From: Verrucomicrobiia bacterium
GTDB lineage: Bacteria; Verrucomicrobiota; Verrucomicrobiia; Limisphaerales; Pedosphaeraceae
Reading direction: 5' to 3'
Length of the DNA stretch: 64,000 nt
NCBI GenBank assembly: GCA_036268055.1
Contig: DATAUW010000021.1
Coordinates: 1 to 64,000, forward strand
Of this stretch, positions 26,067 through 31,825 are shown one piece after another. The position numbers were made by a program, and so were the translations under genes. The notes beneath the pieces were generated by a model. It had not been told where the DNA came from and searched no databases. It worked only from the letters and a program-made list of their open reading frames with translations. Every line of letters starts with the position of its first letter. Within the stretch, counting starts at the first letter, position 1.

Positions 26067-26777
26067 TTAGGCGCCGCAGTAACCCAGTTCGCGGAGTGAA
26101 ACGAAATCGCGCGGGCGCTCTTTGGTGCGGCGGCCGAGGATGACGTGATCGAGGACTTCAATCTTCAGCAACTGGCCGGCGCGGATGAGATCGCGCGTGA
26201 CTTTGATGTCGGCGTCTGAAGGCGTGGGATCGCCGCTGGGATGATTGTGAACGAGGATGATGGCGGAGGCATTCGCGCTGATGGCGGCCTTGAAAACTTC
26301 GCGCGCGTGAACGAGCAGGGTGTCCAGCGTGCCTTGCGAAACGATGTCCACGCGGATCAATTTCCGGCGCGTGTTGAGCATGACGATTTGAAAATGTTCG
26401 ACTTCGTAATGGCGGTTATCCTCGCGCAAAAGATCGGCGATGCTTTCGGGATTGTCGAGCACGGGCGCTTCCTGGCGAATTTCGAGCACCATGCGGCGCG
26501 CCAGTGTGAACGCGCTTTTCAAAGCGATGGCTTTATCGCGGCCAACACCTTTGATCTTGCGCAAATCCTCGAGCGACGCGCGCGAAAGGCCGTCGAGCGT
26601 GCCGAATTTTTGCAATAACTGTTCGGCGATCTGAATCGCGGAAACGCCTTTCATGCCGGTGCGCAAAAGAATGGCCACCAGCTCGGAATTTTTTAACGCA
26701 TCCGCGCCGTGCGCTACGAGGCGTTCGCGCGGACGTTCGCTGTCGGGCAAATCCTTGATGCGGATGCTTGTGCTCAT
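26067..26777 (-). CDS. radC: RadC family JAB/MPN-domain protein
   Basis: A 236-residue RadC/YeeS-like protein with an N-terminal helix-hairpin-helix part (IKDLPDSERPRERL, LEDLRKIKGVGRDKAIAL). The JAMM metal motif is intact in the C-terminal domain (HNHPSGDPTPSDAD). The family is widespread; a role in DNA repair or processing was proposed but never firmly established. The start at 26777 overlaps the stop of the upstream phosphorylase gene as ATGA, so the two are translationally coupled. The reading frame continues far upstream without a stop, but that stretch is shadow sequence inside the phosphorylase. Confidence 0.9.
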   Translation of the reverse strand: MSTSIRIKDLPDSERPRERLVAHGADALKNSELVAILLRTGMKGVSAIQIAEQLLQKFGTLDGLSRASLEDLRKIKGVGRDKAIALKSAFTLARRMVLEIRQEAPVLDNPESIADLLREDNRHYEVEHFQIVMLNTRRKLIRVDIVSQGTLDTLLVHAREVFKAAISANASAIILVHNHPSGDPTPSDADIKVTRDLIRAGQLLKIEVLDHVILGRRTKERPRDFVSLRELGYCGA

Positions 26778-28078
26778 AGGACTTCGTAAATGAGTTGAGA
26801 TTTGGCGGGCGCGGCATCGGCGATCTGGAAAGCGGTTTTCAAACGCTCCAGCGCGGTTTGTGCCTGAGCTTTTCCGACGGCATGCACGCGGCAGAGCAAT
26901 TCGTCCACTGCGATTTTTTCGCCGACCGCCGCCATTTCGTCCACGCCGACTTCGGGATGAATCACGGTTTCTTTCGTCAAGCGGCCTCCGCCGAGATCGC
27001 GAACGACTTCGCCGATGATGCGCGCGTTGCAGCCGGAAATAAAACCATCGCGCTCGGCTTTTAACTCCATGACGACGGGAGCGGTGGAATCGCGTTGCAA
27101 TTTCTTTTCGGTGGCGTCGGCATCGGCACCCTGGGCGGCAAGCATCTCGTTCCATTTCGCGCGCGGTTTGCCGGAAGCGAGACATTGGAAGGCGAGTTGG
27201 CGGCCAGCTTCGACACTCGCAACCCGTTTCGTCTGCTCCAGCAAATGCGCGGCGAAGGCAATCACCAGTTCGCGCAAATCATCGGGACCGCGGCCTTCAA
27301 GGCATTCGACGCTTTCTTTCACTTCAAGCCAGTTTCCCGCGGTGCGGCCGAGCGGCGTATCCATGCCGGTGATGAGCGCGCGTGTCTTGACGCCGCATTC
27401 ATTCCCGAGCGCCACCATGGCGGCGGCGAGTTGCCCGGCGCGTTCGCGCGTGGGCATGAAAGCGGCCGCCCCGAATTTCACATCGAGCACCAGCGCATGC
27501 AAACTCTCCGCAAGTTTTTTAGAAAGAATGGAGGCGGTGATCAGCGGAATGGACGGGACGGTGCCGCTGACATCGCGCAAGGCATACATCGCTTTGTCCG
27601 CGGGAACCATGCGCGCGGTTTGCCCGCAAATAACGCAGCCGACGGTTTGCACATTTTTCACGATGCGTTCCAAATCCAGCGCGGTCGTGAAGCCGGGAAT
27701 GGATTCGAGTTTGTCGAGCGTTCCACCGGTGATGCCGAGACCGCGGCCGGAAATCATCGGCACGCGCAAGCCGAGGCACGCGAGCAAGGGCGCAAGCGGC
27801 AGCGAAACTTTATCGCCGACGCCACCGGTGGAATGTTTGTCCACGAGCGGGCGCGGGTCGTTGGGAAAGGTAAGGACGTCCCCGGAATCGCGCATCGCGA
27901 GCGTGAGGCCGCTCGTTTCCTGCGTGTTCAATCCGCGAAAAAAAATCGCCATGAGCATGGCGGACATCTGGTAATCGGGAATTTTTCCACCAACGTATTC
28001 GGAAATGATTTCCTTGATCTGCGAAACTTCAAGCGCCTGCCCGTCGCGCTTGGATTCGATGAGGGAGAGAAAGTTCAT
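26774..28078 (-). CDS. Thymidine/pyrimidine-nucleoside phosphorylase
   Basis: Cytosolic phosphorolysis of pyrimidine nucleosides to base and (deoxy)ribose 1-phosphate for salvage. The 434 residues show the family blocks: MSAMLMAIFFRGLNTQET, the phosphate-binding VDKHSTGGVGDKVSLPLAPL, SGRGLGITGGTLDKLESIPG, and the C-terminal domain with a lipoyl/biotin-like fold (RDLGGGRLTKETVIHPEVG). deoA and pdp cannot be separated reliably by eye. The stop overlaps radC (ATGA). Five bases upstream lies the ancestral end of the J-domain gene, suggesting a minus-strand operon. Confidence 0.9.
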   Translation of the reverse strand: MNFLSLIESKRDGQALEVSQIKEIISEYVGGKIPDYQMSAMLMAIFFRGLNTQETSGLTLAMRDSGDVLTFPNDPRPLVDKHSTGGVGDKVSLPLAPLLACLGLRVPMISGRGLGITGGTLDKLESIPGFTTALDLERIVKNVQTVGCVICGQTARMVPADKAMYALRDVSGTVPSIPLITASILSKKLAESLHALVLDVKFGAAAFMPTRERAGQLAAAMVALGNECGVKTRALITGMDTPLGRTAGNWLEVKESVECLEGRGPDDLRELVIAFAAHLLEQTKRVASVEAGRQLAFQCLASGKPRAKWNEMLAAQGADADATEKKLQRDSTAPVVMELKAERDGFISGCNARIIGEVVRDLGGGRLTKETVIHPEVGVDEMAAVGEKIAVDELLCRVHAVGKAQAQTALERLKTAFQIADAAPAKSQLIYEVL

Positions 28079-28082
28079 GCTG

Positions 28083-28170
28083 CTATTTTTGTTCCACCGC
28101 AAAAGATTTCACCGTGACCGTGCTGCCCGCTGGCCCGATTCCCACCGTTCCAGTCAGCGCGTGGTAATCC
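28083..28170 (-). pseudogene. Out-of-frame 3' tail of the J-domain gene
   Basis: Immediately after the stop of the J-domain gene, another frame reads KDYHALTGTVGIGPAGSTVT and then VKSFAVEQK to a TAG at 28083-28085. This aligns with the end of the first repeat of the same protein (NYRRIDGLVGIGGNRDSIAV, KNFSIES). Removing one T from the AATTAAGG junction restores QNKDYHAL and the full second repeat. The present stop therefore looks like a +1 insertion, or a sequencing error, that removed about 28 residues. Confidence 0.65.
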
Positions 28171-29643
28171 TTAATTCTGAAAATGAAGCTGGCCGTCAAT
28201 GAACACCTTCATGCCCTTGTCCCAAATTTCCCACGTCACCTCATGCCATTCGTTCGGATAAATAAGTCCTCGTCCGGCCACAGCCGTCAAGTCTCCGGTG
28301 AATGGATCATGCACTCGCAATTCCGAGGGGTTGCCTCCCCAATTGAAAATCACCCGGCCCGCCGGCCCGGCGTAAAGCCGCAGATCGGTCGAATCCGTTT
28401 TCGCCACGGTGTGAATGATGAAAGGAACATGAAAAACATTTGTGCTCTTCAATAGTGTCATGGCCGCCACGCTCGTGAGGCTGCTGGCATATAAAGAAAT
28501 GCCGTCCGTGCTTCGTGTTATCGTGGGATTACTTATGGAAACCATCGAAGACAAAATATCGTTCGGAATCGGCGCGGGCTTCACCAGATTACCGGATGTC
28601 TTCGGTTCAATTGGCGTCCGGCTTTCGATACTAAAATTTTTCACCGCAATGGAATCACGATTGCCGCCGATCCCAACCAGTCCATCGATGCGCCGATAAT
28701 TTCCTTTGCCCTCGAAAATCGTTTCGCCATCCGAAGTCACCCTCATGGTGTTCGTGGTGATTTCCCAAACCAACTTGTGCCATTCATTCGTGGCGAGAAA
28801 TCCTTTTTTGGCCACGGCAGACATCGCGCTGGTCACGGGATCGTGGACCCGCAGCTCAAACGGATTGTCGGCCCAATTGAAGATAACCATGCCCAATCCG
28901 TAAATCAGCCGGAGATCGGCGAGGTCGGTTTTCACGGTTGCGCGGATAGTAAGCGGCGCGCGATATGGATGAGTAACGCGAAGCATCGCACGATCTCCTT
29001 TTGGAGTTAAAACCAAACCGTCCGCGGTCTTCGCGGCATCCATGTCATTGAAAGGAACCATTTCGGCGAGCAGATCCGTGGAAGAAGTGTTGATCGGCGG
29101 GGGCGCGGGTTCGGTTTCCTTTACGGCGGATGTTTCGGGAACGGTTGCCGGATGGTTCGTAGGTTCGGGCGGTGATGAATCGTTGTTGGTGCCTGGAGCG
29201 ACGGCTGCTGGAGATTCCGTCGGCGCGTTCGGGCGGTTTTGAGATTTCCAATAGAAAAATAATCCGGCGAAAATCACCAGGACGACAACTGCGATAATTC
29301 CGATGGCTCCCGATTTTCGTTCAGGCGCTTCGGGTGAATCGGCAGCAACTTCCTCTTCAACTGGCGATTTTTCTTGAGCGGGCGGCGGCACGACGGGTGG
29401 GGAATCCGTCTCTGGAGCCGCGATTTGAACTTCGTTCTGAAAGGCGTTGGCGATTAGAAAATCATAAGCGGCATTGATTTCCTTGAGTTTTTCCTGCGCC
29501 TTTAACTGCAAGCGTTCGTTGCCCGCAAAACGGTCGGGATGCCAGACCTGAACCAAGTCGCGGTAGATGCTTTTTAGGTCTTCCAAAGACGTGCCCGCAT
29601 CCACGCCAAGAATTTTACGACATCTGGAAATCTCATCCATCAC
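28171..29643 (-). CDS. Membrane-anchored J-domain protein with duplicated LamG/DUF1080-like domains
   Basis: Unusual fusion of 490 residues. An N-terminal J-domain (about 1-65, HPD at 35-37) should stimulate a DnaK-type chaperone in the cytoplasm. An acidic/proline-rich linker and one transmembrane helix (IGIIAVVVLVIFAGLFFYW, about 115-135) then lead to an outside portion with two homologous ~140-residue beta domains. The repeats share VIFNW-x2-NP-x-ELRVHDP and NEWH-x2-WEI, reminiscent of concanavalin-type (LamG or DUF1080) folds. The second repeat is cut short by a frameshift at 28171. The topology implies signalling between cytoplasmic chaperones and an external ligand, but that is inference. 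Confidence 0.75.
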   Translation of the reverse strand: MMDEISRCRKILGVDAGTSLEDLKSIYRDLVQVWHPDRFAGNERLQLKAQEKLKEINAAYDFLIANAFQNEVQIAAPETDSPPVVPPPAQEKSPVEEEVAADSPEAPERKSGAIGIIAVVVLVIFAGLFFYWKSQNRPNAPTESPAAVAPGTNNDSSPPEPTNHPATVPETSAVKETEPAPPPINTSSTDLLAEMVPFNDMDAAKTADGLVLTPKGDRAMLRVTHPYRAPLTIRATVKTDLADLRLIYGLGMVIFNWADNPFELRVHDPVTSAMSAVAKKGFLATNEWHKLVWEITTNTMRVTSDGETIFEGKGNYRRIDGLVGIGGNRDSIAVKNFSIESRTPIEPKTSGNLVKPAPIPNDILSSMVSISNPTITRSTDGISLYASSLTSVAAMTLLKSTNVFHVPFIIHTVAKTDSTDLRLYAGPAGRVIFNWGGNPSELRVHDPFTGDLTAVAGRGLIYPNEWHEVTWEIWDKGMKVFIDGQLHFQN

Positions 29644-29699
29644 GCCAAATTATTGAGATTTCGCGGAGCAATTAGCAAGTCAATCAAGGGACGAAAAAT

Positions 29700-30215
29700 T
29701 TATAACGATAAGAGGCGAAGTTGAGTGAAGTTGCGGACATCTATATTTCTTTTTCCAAGCAGGGCCGCCAACTTAAAATCTGTTGTCAGCACAAAAAATT
29801 TTCCCGCGGCCACCTTGCTAATCGCAGTATCGGTCAAACCAAACTCGGGAAAATATTCCTGCTGAGACAATTCTTTTGAAGGGGAATAATGCTCGTCCGA
29901 TTCCGTGATAAATAATCGGATCACATTGCAAAACTTCCATCGGTCTTTGCCTTTAAGTTTGTCGGAATGATTGCTTACCTCGGTAAGAATGTGTGGAGTT
30001 GTGATGAGATTCTTAAAGCGTGAGATAATTTCACAAAGCAGGTCGAAATCCGATTCGGAAAAACGCTGATTTGAAATGGGCTTGAACCTTTGGATTAAAC
30101 TCCGGTTGGTCAAACCAACCAAATAAAGCATCAGGATATTCGTATCAAGCAGGATGGCCTGCTTGCGATGTTTTCCAAAAATATTTTCCAATATTTCTGA
30201 ATAATCCGCGCTCAT
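29700..30215 (-). CDS. PIN-domain-like putative ribonuclease
   Basis: A 171-residue protein with the acidic set of PIN nucleases: Asp24 in ILLDTNILMLYLVG, Glu79 in TPHILTEVSNHS, Asp129 in GLTDTAI and Asp146 in LTTDFKLA. It is longer than the classic ~130-residue VapC, with an insertion around SRFKNLITT. It starts within the last codons of the small partner gene (ATGA overlap), the usual arrangement of toxin-antitoxin or nuclease-regulator pairs. I recall similar uncharacterised pairs in other phyla. The RNA target is unknown. Confidence 0.72.
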   Translation of the reverse strand: MSADYSEILENIFGKHRKQAILLDTNILMLYLVGLTNRSLIQRFKPISNQRFSESDFDLLCEIISRFKNLITTPHILTEVSNHSDKLKGKDRWKFCNVIRLFITESDEHYSPSKELSQQEYFPEFGLTDTAISKVAAGKFFVLTTDFKLAALLGKRNIDVRNFTQLRLLSL

Positions 30216-30526
30216 TCCATGGCGCGGATTTTCATCGAAACGACTTTTCCCGTTGTCGCATCCACTTTAAAAATCTTATATTTTGCTTTTGGCCCGCCTA
30301 AAAGGAGGCTCTCCAAATTGATATGATTCGATTTGGCCACCTTGGGTTTGCCATTGGGTGTCTCAAATCCTAAAGTAATCAGCCAATATTTTTCATCTTC
30401 AGATAACTCCGCTTCTTCCAGACTGAAATTAATAGCCGTTGGAAAAAGTGCCTGAGAATATTCCATCGCAGATTTGGCCGCTTGCCGCACGTCCAATAAG
30501 TTTGGCTGTGATTTTACCGAAATCAT
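30212..30526 (-). CDS. Small partner protein of the PIN-domain gene
   Basis: A 104-residue protein from the ATG at 30526. It contains the motif AELSEDEKYWLITLGFETP and ends YKIFKVDATTGKVVSMKIRA, a pattern that resembles a PepSY-like strand-turn-strand. It has no DNA-binding motif typical of VapB antitoxins. The 4-base overlap with the PIN gene indicates coupled translation and a joint role, possibly inhibition of the nuclease. It lies 39 bases downstream of fabF. Function is not established. Confidence 0.6.
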   Translation of the reverse strand: MISVKSQPNLLDVRQAAKSAMEYSQALFPTAINFSLEEAELSEDEKYWLITLGFETPNGKPKVAKSNHINLESLLLGGPKAKYKIFKVDATTGKVVSMKIRAME

Positions 30527-30565
30527 AGGACAGTTTAACGCAAAGCCCGCTGTTCTGAAAGCCAA

Positions 30566-31825
30566 TTAACCCAAAAACTTTTTCGCGGCGATGGTCGCGT
30601 TGTGGCCGCCGAAACCGAACGAGTTGTTCAGGATGGCGTTGACCTTCATCTCGCGCGCGGTGTTGGGGACGTAATCCAAATCGCATTCGGGATCGGGATT
30701 TTCGTAATTGATGGTGGGCGGGACGGCATCGGTCTGGATCGCCTTGGCGCAGGCGGCCATTTCAATCGCCCCAGCCGCGCCGAGCATGTGGCCGGTCGCG
30801 CCCTTGGTGGAACTCACCGCGAGCTTGCGGGCGTATTCGCCAAAAACGGTTTTGATGGCCTGCGTCTCGCAGATGTCGCCCTGCGGAGTCGAGGTGCCGT
30901 GGGCGTTGACGTAAGAGATGTCGGAAGGATTCAGGCCGCCATTGCGCAAGGCCATTTTCATGCAGCGCGCCGCGCCTTCGCCTTCGGGCGCGGGGGCGGT
31001 GATGTGGTTGGCGTCGGCGGTGTTGCCGTAGCCGACGATCTCGCAATAAATTTTCGCGCCACGCGCTTTGGCGTGTTCCAATTCTTCAAGCACGAGCACG
31101 CCCGCGCCTTCACCCATGACGAAACCATCGCGTTCCTTGTCGAACGGACGGGAGGCGCGTTGGGGTTCGGCGTTGCGGGTGCTCATGGCGCGCATGGCGC
31201 AAAAGCCGCCGATGCCCATGGGGACAATCGTGGCTTCACTGCCGCCGGCAAAAATGGCATTGGCATCGCCCATCTTGATTGTGCGCCAGGCTTCGCCGAT
31301 GGCATGCACGGAAGTCGCGCAAGCGGAGCAGGTGGCGAAATTTGGCCCGCGCAATTTGTGATACATCGAAAATAATCCCGAGGCCATGTTCGAGATGAGC
31401 ATGGGAATCATGAAGGGCGAAAGCCGGTTCGGCCCGCGCTCGCTTAACACGGTGTGTTGTTCCGAGGTGGTTTTCAGGCCGCCGATGCCGGAGCCGATGA
31501 AGACGCCGATTTCATCGCAATTCAGCTTGGACAAATCCATGCCGGAATCGAGCAGCGCGTGGTAACCGGCGGTGACACCGAATTGCGAGAAACGGTCGGT
31601 GCGCTTGACTTCCTTGGGATTGGGAAAGCCCGGACCGGGAACGAAATCCTTTATCTCAGCGGCGATTTTGCAATCGAATTCCGTGGCGTCAAAGGAAGTG
31701 ATCTCGCTGATGCCGCATTTGGCGTTGAGGAGATTATTCCAGAAGGGTTCGATGTGTTGCCCGAGGGAGGAAACCACGCCAATGCCAGTGACAACGATCC
31801 TGCGCTCGGTCCAATTGCTTACCAT
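30566..31825 (-). CDS. fabF: 3-oxoacyl-ACP synthase II FabF
   Basis: Condensing enzyme that elongates acyl-ACP with malonyl-ACP in type II fatty acid synthesis. The 419 residues carry the Cys-His-His triad: Cys in TCSACATSVHAIGEA, His in VNAHGTSTPQGD and His in KGATGHMLGAAG. The ending FGFGGHNATI is also typical. It is the last gene of a minus-strand fabD-fabG-acpP-fabF run, with 70 bases between acpP and fabF. Confidence 0.95.
   Translation of the reverse strand: MVSNWTERRIVVTGIGVVSSLGQHIEPFWNNLLNAKCGISEITSFDATEFDCKIAAEIKDFVPGPGFPNPKEVKRTDRFSQFGVTAGYHALLDSGMDLSKLNCDEIGVFIGSGIGGLKTTSEQHTVLSERGPNRLSPFMIPMLISNMASGLFSMYHKLRGPNFATCSACATSVHAIGEAWRTIKMGDANAIFAGGSEATIVPMGIGGFCAMRAMSTRNAEPQRASRPFDKERDGFVMGEGAGVLVLEELEHAKARGAKIYCEIVGYGNTADANHITAPAPEGEGAARCMKMALRNGGLNPSDISYVNAHGTSTPQGDICETQAIKTVFGEYARKLAVSSTKGATGHMLGAAGAIEMAACAKAIQTDAVPPTINYENPDPECDLDYVPNTAREMKVNAILNNSFGFGGHNATIAAKKFLG

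Follow-up and report, generated by a model that had tools for sequence, protein, structure and literature searches.

A sporadically distributed gene pair of a PIN-domain nuclease and a small protein of predicted cystatin/PepSY-like fold, probably a toxin-antitoxin module

The stretch of DNA analyzed here, called the window below, comprises 64,000 nucleotides from a Verrucomicrobiia bacterium of the family Pedosphaeraceae. It carries on its minus strand a pair of adjoining genes, a small partner gene followed downstream by the gene of a PIN-domain nuclease (Table 1). The stop codon of the first overlaps the start codon of the second, as the original prediction had noted from the letters alone, and this arrangement is conserved beyond the window. 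Specifically, a distance of -4 separates partner stop and PIN start in 69 of 91 pairs, with the PIN start set at the start codon nearest to the partner stop and with fragments and three loci lacking a start codon within the allowed distance (L026, L062, and L075) omitted from the count. Four plasmids show the same 4-base overlap in their RefSeq annotation, where the two products are labeled "hypothetical protein" and "PIN domain-containing protein". In the window, fabF lies directly upstream of the partner at a spacing of 39 bases, and a consensus scan found no minus-strand promoter-like site from fabF to the partner, a result that proves little.

Table 1. Features of the gene pair and its immediate neighbors in the window
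Feature	Coordinates	Strand	Remarks
PIN-domain nuclease, predicted toxin	29700..30215	(-)	171 aa; acidic D24, E79, D129, D146
Partner, predicted antitoxin	30212..30526	(-)	104 aa from ATG; cystatin/PepSY-like fold predicted
Partner alternative start	TTG at 30565	(-)	117 aa if used
Stop/start overlap, partner stop and PIN start	30212..30215	(-)	4 bases
fabF (3-oxoacyl-ACP synthase)	30566..31825	(-)	named by eye; context, outside module
DnaJ-domain protein, downstream neighbor	28171..29643	(-)	context, outside module

The catalytic residues of the PIN protein are conserved throughout its relatives. All 80 aligned PINs have D24, E79, and D129, and the D146 position holds D in 79 of them and E in one, which bears out the claim that the protein keeps all four acidic residues. 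(The 80-member alignments of both proteins consist of the window plus 79 of the 91 pairs; the 11 pairs of L001-L011 and L013 were left out.) The structure model of the window PIN (pLDDT 92.7) is predicted to have a VapC/FitB-like fold, its closest structures being PIN proteins: PAE0151 (2fe1; Z 11.9, 2.5 Å over 118), VapC4 (5h4g; Z 11.7), VapBC2 (3zvk; Z 11.4), and FitB (Z 11.1), with a best Foldseek E value of 4.7e-4. At the level of sequence families, the window PIN reaches no cut-off in Pfam, NCBIfam, or PADLOC, and the weak Pfam matches of its relatives fall on PF01850 (11/80, best E 0.0041), DUF188 (9/80, best 0.00017), and PIN_9 (1/80, 0.00076). Searches against PDB sequences gave no match at E 10 for either window protein and, for the 80-member profiles of both, unrelated names only (E 0.06 to 0.97).

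The partner was modeled as a helix-strand-strand-short helix-strand-strand protein (pLDDT 81.8, with residues 60-69 below 50), and its predicted fold is cystatin/PepSY-like and not DNA-binding. The assignment to this fold class derives from a second structural aligner together with weak PepSY profile matches; plain Foldseek on the same model returned no match at E 0.001. The top structure matches are two designed proteins, one at Z 10.4 and the other, titled cystatin fold, at Z 10.1. They are followed by a clostridial lipoprotein (4exr; Z 9.6, 1.9 Å over 62 residues), YpmB (2gu3; Z 8.3, 2.0 Å, 61 aligned), the vibriolysin propeptide (Z 7.8), and, at Z 7.3 each, cystatin C and the colicin M immunity protein, where values below 8 can reflect common arrangements. 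We take 4exr, YpmB, and the vibriolysin propeptide to be PepSY proteins. Interleaved among these matches are NTF2-like chains (3ub1, Z 8.8 at 5.8 Å; 4ec6, 8.1). The PepSY profile scores 12.5 bits on the window partner, below its cut-off of 24, and matches 15 of the 80 members when E values as high as 0.1 are allowed (best 0.0088); an unrelated polymerase segment, DNA_pol3_a_NI, matches five of the 80 (best 0.0053).

Further, the window partner belongs to no family at cut-off in Pfam, NCBIfam, or PADLOC. Its four weak Pfam families include no RHH, AbrB, Phd/YefM, or HTH antitoxin family, and none of RHH, AbrB, Phd, or HTH figures among the 16 weak Pfam families found over the 80 aligned partners. 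The claim that the partner, unlike VapB, has no DNA-binding motif is thus upheld by family searches and by the predicted fold, on which grounds a VapB-like antitoxin was ruled out. The sole PADLOC match, to a reverse-transcriptase family (E 0.022), was judged to be chance. Conservation among partners concentrates in two segments, LEEVELSED..WLITLGF and REYKxFK...TGEVxSMKIR, and two basic residues near the C-terminus, K99 and R101, are conserved as well. Position 81 is A in the window and R in at least 90% of the 80 aligned members.

The original prediction had proposed a survey of neighborhood conservation, which we ran with a partner profile built from nine sequences and a PIN profile built from 11 aligned PINs. 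A scan of GTDB contigs with the PIN profile contributed the best 80 of 174 confirmed relatives, the nearest half, to which two viral contigs were added, and the resulting 93 loci include the window (L001), a near-identical pair of loci (L009/L046), and one frameshifted partner (L062). A partner lies within 1,000 bases upstream on the same strand for 95 of the 96 PIN hits in these loci, where two of the hits are parts of a single broken gene (L013), and the sole hit without an upstream partner is a lone 52-residue fragment (L082). Searched elsewhere in the 93 loci at E 0.001, the partner profile found only the second piece of one frameshifted partner. The first PIN relatives, from five other genomes and five plasmids, had likewise all shown a partner-like open reading frame (ORF) directly upstream. 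The expectation that the pair occurs in other phyla as hypothetical proteins also proved correct, with labeled members in 14 named phyla (the names are those of record titles, many of them bins). Neither protein belongs to a curated family, as would be the case if the two were chance neighbors or if the partner were a mis-called ORF and no real protein. That explanation is refuted by the conservation of sequence and place across the 14 phyla, and the well-predicted core and the dN/dS values of the closest comparisons, 0.07 and 0.19 and so under 1, also speak against it, so that its probability is negligible.

Presence of the pair is sporadic and accessory, and some copies reside on plasmids or on integrase-bearing viral contigs. 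The PIN search was positive in six of 196 genomes, the window's own included, the pair was found in one of eight same-family genomes, and the partner occurred in three of the 387 genomes sampled from the window's phylum, one of them a weak match. Among 72,556 plasmid records, PIN and partner searches returned the identical five, and a second query pair, from a cyanobacterial plasmid, returned the same five again. In two viral contigs, the pair lies close to an integrase, and in one of these a YqaJ recombinase is nearby as well; for phage carriage, we found no match in 50,697 phage records, nor did a second viral scan with the partner as query produce one. Two genomes (G581 and G583) hold two copies of the pair each.

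In a subset of relatives, the pair is associated with BREX-related defense genes, a context that, like the cystatin/PepSY-like fold, goes beyond the original prediction. Homologues of DUF499 and/or DUF1156, found by tblastn with the proteins of L010 (plasmid pMIC7113.06) and confirmed as domains by Pfam for L010 and by RefSeq labels, lie near the pair in 14 of 93 loci, with both present in 12 and only remnants in L038. The DUF1156 gene directly follows the PIN gene in seven of the 14, and a conserved 142-aa gene directly precedes the partner in six loci, either behind DUF499 or replacing it. The 142-aa protein is a RefSeq hypothetical that is encoded, for example, between DUF499 and the partner at L007:5257-5685 and L010:5154-5582. 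On the PIN tree, the BREX-related label changes seven times (13 labeled rows). These observations, together with the backup endoRNases that PMC12839542 proposes, in the part of it consulted here, for BREX-related operons, PIN less commonly among them, would fit an auxiliary effector of the defense system formed by the DUF499 ATPase, the DUF1156 methyltransferase, and an SNF2 helicase. Such an effector would be a suicide RNase that the partner restrains and that is freed when a phage defeats the main system, with the free-standing copies having been cut loose. We consider this account of the whole family quite improbable, given that all 14 loci are cyanobacterial, that the other 79 loci have neither DUF499 nor DUF1156 (though many hold little flanking DNA), and that both domains are absent from the window's whole genome. 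The place of the pair in some BREX-related operons does open a possible suicide-effector role there to direct study. A broader proposal, that a cystatin/PepSY protein directly capping a VapC-like RNase forms a separate class of toxin-antitoxin pair, one that BREX-related anti-phage operons have repeatedly taken up for suicide, the cap acting as a phage sensor, is speculative and strikes us as unlikely. On a Nostoc plasmid (L009, 2112-5486), the genes beside the pair encode a multiubiquitin protein, a ThiF-type enzyme, an HTH regulator, and an ImmA/IrrE protease.

Other copies sit among housekeeping genes (fabF, deoA, ispG, gatB, and purH, as well as the PQQ-like ORFs below, were named by eye). 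The interval between fabF and deoA (window 26774-31825; L002; L167-L172) is a variable slot. It reads fabF-partner-PIN-DnaJ gene-deoA in the window and fabF-partner-PIN-deoA in L002, a genome of another family, and six same-family fabF loci (L167-L172) lack the pair there, their alternatives being small PQQ-repeat-like ORFs, a Barstar gene in L169 (494-1003), or, in L170, next to nothing. The DnaJ protein of the window slot, 490 aa long, has an N-terminal DnaJ domain, a hydrophobic stretch visible by eye, and at its C-terminus a weak lectin-like match below cut-off; it has no match in the fabF loci of the six relatives or in L002. In L004-L006, the pair stands behind ispG. Unlike the copies on plasmids and in defense operons, those of Nostocaceae have a fixed position on the chromosome, with gatB nearby in nine loci and purH in six; the Nostocaceae loci are L039, L042, L048, L050, L052, L053, L066, L067, L073, and L080.

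The PIN tree, computed from 90 of the 91 pairs, tracks the phyla, with 14 changes against a minimum of 13 over 75 labeled rows, 15 unlabeled rows (the window among them) being uncounted. The window's order occupies three places in it (L001-L002, L003, and L004-L006), and the join of L001 with L002 carries a long-branch warning. Because the tree follows phyla, recent spread or transfer between phyla is unsupported, and this pattern together with the fixed place in Nostocaceae marks the pair as less mobile than many toxin-antitoxin pairs. As for co-evolution within the pair, the top mutual-information score between PIN and partner (z 4.96) does not reach the average of the maxima from 30 shuffles (5.56), with about 66 effective sequences and hence low power. 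A distance correlation of 0.81 is what linked genes would show in any case, and we give it no weight as a sign of contact.

The housekeeping surroundings (fabF in the window and L002, ispG in L004-L006, gatB and purH in Nostocaceae) and a PIN tree that tracks phyla would suit a module for RNA processing or turnover, in which the partner would serve a housekeeping PIN endoribonuclease as a subunit or substrate adaptor, guiding or activating it, so that the two act together and neither protein is a toxin; linkage and overlap fit such a complex equally well. This explanation is, in our judgment, unlikely. It is at odds with the very patchy presence (six of 196 genomes for the PIN, three of 387 for the partner), with the occurrence of some copies on plasmids, on viral contigs, or in BREX-related contexts, and with a partner that outlives loss of the PIN, which a two-subunit enzyme does not predict.

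That last pattern emerged when both profiles were run on 860 genomes in three samples: the 387 of the window's phylum, 176 of the cyanobacterial order of a Nostoc genome, and 297 of the phylum of a Desulfonema bin. The E limits varied by sample, being 0.01 or 0.001 in the partner searches and 1e-8 or 1e-6 in the PIN searches, and several genomes of the cyanobacterial-order sample are also among the 93 loci with the same contigs, so the counts overlap. In 20 loci with a full-length PIN, the partner is open in 18, frameshifted in two (G591 and G641), and missing in none; lone PIN pieces in the three samples are fragments (G718 and G702). It is therefore firm that a full-length PIN gene without a partner gene was not found in these searches. 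Viewed from the other side, the 32 loci with an open partner divide into 18 with an intact PIN, one at a contig end (G747), five with a broken PIN, and eight in which no PIN was recognized. The broken genes comprise, by profile, an internal deletion (G690), a truncation (G732), a frameshift (G758), and a split by an insert (G610) and, by eye, a further internal deletion (G501), where two sub-threshold profile pieces lie in order. The PIN gene of G610 (L183 3012-4854) is split by about 1.3 kb of DNA, which holds an opposite-strand ORF with a DAPG-hydrolase match. The loci without a PIN by profile are G713, in which a short N-terminal PIN piece can be made out by eye, G721, two loci of G685, G596, G602, G702, and G927. 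Two further loci with partner remnants (G652 and G629) and a weak match in G243 (21 bits, within a 1,096-aa frame) were left uncounted.

One-sided losses thus number 13 for the PIN and two for the partner (p = 0.007 at even odds, 0.048 when weighted by gene length), or 11 and two (p = 0.092) once the two most divergent partner loci (the second of G685 and that of G702) are set aside. The bias is in the direction expected of a toxin and its antitoxin, and it is marginal once gene length is allowed for. The original prediction had named frequent occurrence of either gene alone as evidence against a functional pair. That outcome is half borne out: the PIN stands alone only as three fragments (L082, G718, and G702), but in 13 of the 32 loci with an open partner gene, the partner is found either alone or with what remains of a PIN gene.

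Taken together, we read the pair as a type II-like toxin-antitoxin module with a new antitoxin fold, and we put the probability of this reading at about 0.65. It is favored by the intact catalytic residues and VapC/FitB-like fold of the PIN, the linkage and overlap of PIN and partner, the PIN-biased decay, the sporadic presence, the plasmid and viral copies, the genomes with two copies, and the inhibitor-like fold predicted for the partner; it is opposed by an open PIN beside a damaged partner in three cases, namely the two frameshifted loci (G591 and G641) and L017, where a full PIN adjoins a partner that lacks its last residues. Also weighing against it are the weaker loss bias once the two most divergent partner loci are set aside, the NTF2-like chains among the fold matches, the lack of a co-variation signal above shuffles, the phylum-following PIN tree with the fixed place in Nostocaceae, and the missing DNA-binding antitoxin. 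The original prediction had left the choice between a distinct toxin-antitoxin module and an RNA-processing module, and of these the former is favored by the genetics while the latter has gained no separate support. PIN toxins rank among the most frequent toxins in bacteria and archaea, and the partners described for them in the literature consulted here are antitoxins that bind DNA.

Under the toxin-antitoxin reading, the downstream gene would encode a putative VapC-like PIN endoribonuclease and the upstream, overlapping gene a small cystatin/PepSY-fold protein that is probably cytosolic and made first. The overlap would couple translation of the nuclease to that of its partner. PepSY and cystatin domains often inhibit enzymes, and several do so by binding and blocking them; these inhibitors are mostly extracytoplasmic and mostly directed against proteases. 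By analogy with the way cystatins and protease propeptides cap enzymes, the partner probably binds the PIN protein and blocks its active site. K99 and R101, the conserved basic residues close to the C-terminus of the partner, may extend into the acidic pocket of the PIN protein, in analogy to VapB and FitA. When the partner is lost or degraded (e.g., upon plasmid loss or infection), the freed PIN would cut RNA and growth would stop, toxicity, direct inhibition, and trigger being putative steps of this scheme. Because no DNA-binding antitoxin is present, the usual autoregulation would be missing, and the pair, if read correctly, would represent a non-transcriptional route to toxin control. It would also mean that the enzyme-capping cystatin/PepSY fold works inside the cell and on nucleases, and it would explain why both genes have stayed without a family in annotation pipelines.

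Compared with known systems, the pair most resembles VapBC and FitAB, with which it shares a VapC/FitB-like PIN fold, the acidic residues, an antitoxin-like gene placed first, a short overlap, and a patchy distribution. It differs from them in that its partner, of predicted cystatin/PepSY-like fold, has no match to an RHH, AbrB, Phd, or HTH family, and in that its PIN falls below every Pfam cut-off. Given that a DNA-binding antitoxin defines VapBC in the portion of PMC3834315 consulted, and that none was found here, we do not file the pair as VapBC, although it may work like one. Makarova et al. (2009; PMC2701414), in the sections consulted, predicted PIN partners bioinformatically, some of them common in cyanobacteria, and paired PIN proteins with COG2442 (DUF433), COG2880, COG2886, COG1753, and MerR antitoxins, described there as DNA- or nucleic-acid-binding folds; the present partner matches none of the nucleic-acid-binding folds described in those sections. 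Several PIN-hypothetical pairs are also listed for Synechocystis 6803 in the corresponding part of PMC4963859. With the PepSY/cystatin inhibitors (M4 protease propeptides, YpmB, cystatins, and the colicin M immunity protein), the partner shares its predicted fold, whereas its PepSY sequence match lies below cut-off. The main text of PMC12839542, as far as its consulted parts go, names PIN endoRNases and no cystatin-fold partner, and the term "PepSY" is absent from it. Among the papers listed by searches of open-licence PubMed Central literature, none announced a PepSY/cystatin antitoxin of a PIN toxin. The novelty would accordingly lie in the predicted antitoxin fold within a toxin-antitoxin pair, the rest being of a known kind.

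Finally, the 13 partners that stand alone or with a PIN remnant have the appearance of solitary antitoxins. In a comparison of PIN-less partners (L122 vs L126), dN/dS is 0.19, most of which divergence may predate PIN loss. Some PIN-less partners are divergent (L176 2578-3250 on the minus strand and L174 2868-3444 on the plus strand): G702 has two tandem copies, and the divergent partner of G685 is followed by an 88-aa ORF without a Pfam family. Possibly, these represent the same fold paired with another toxin.
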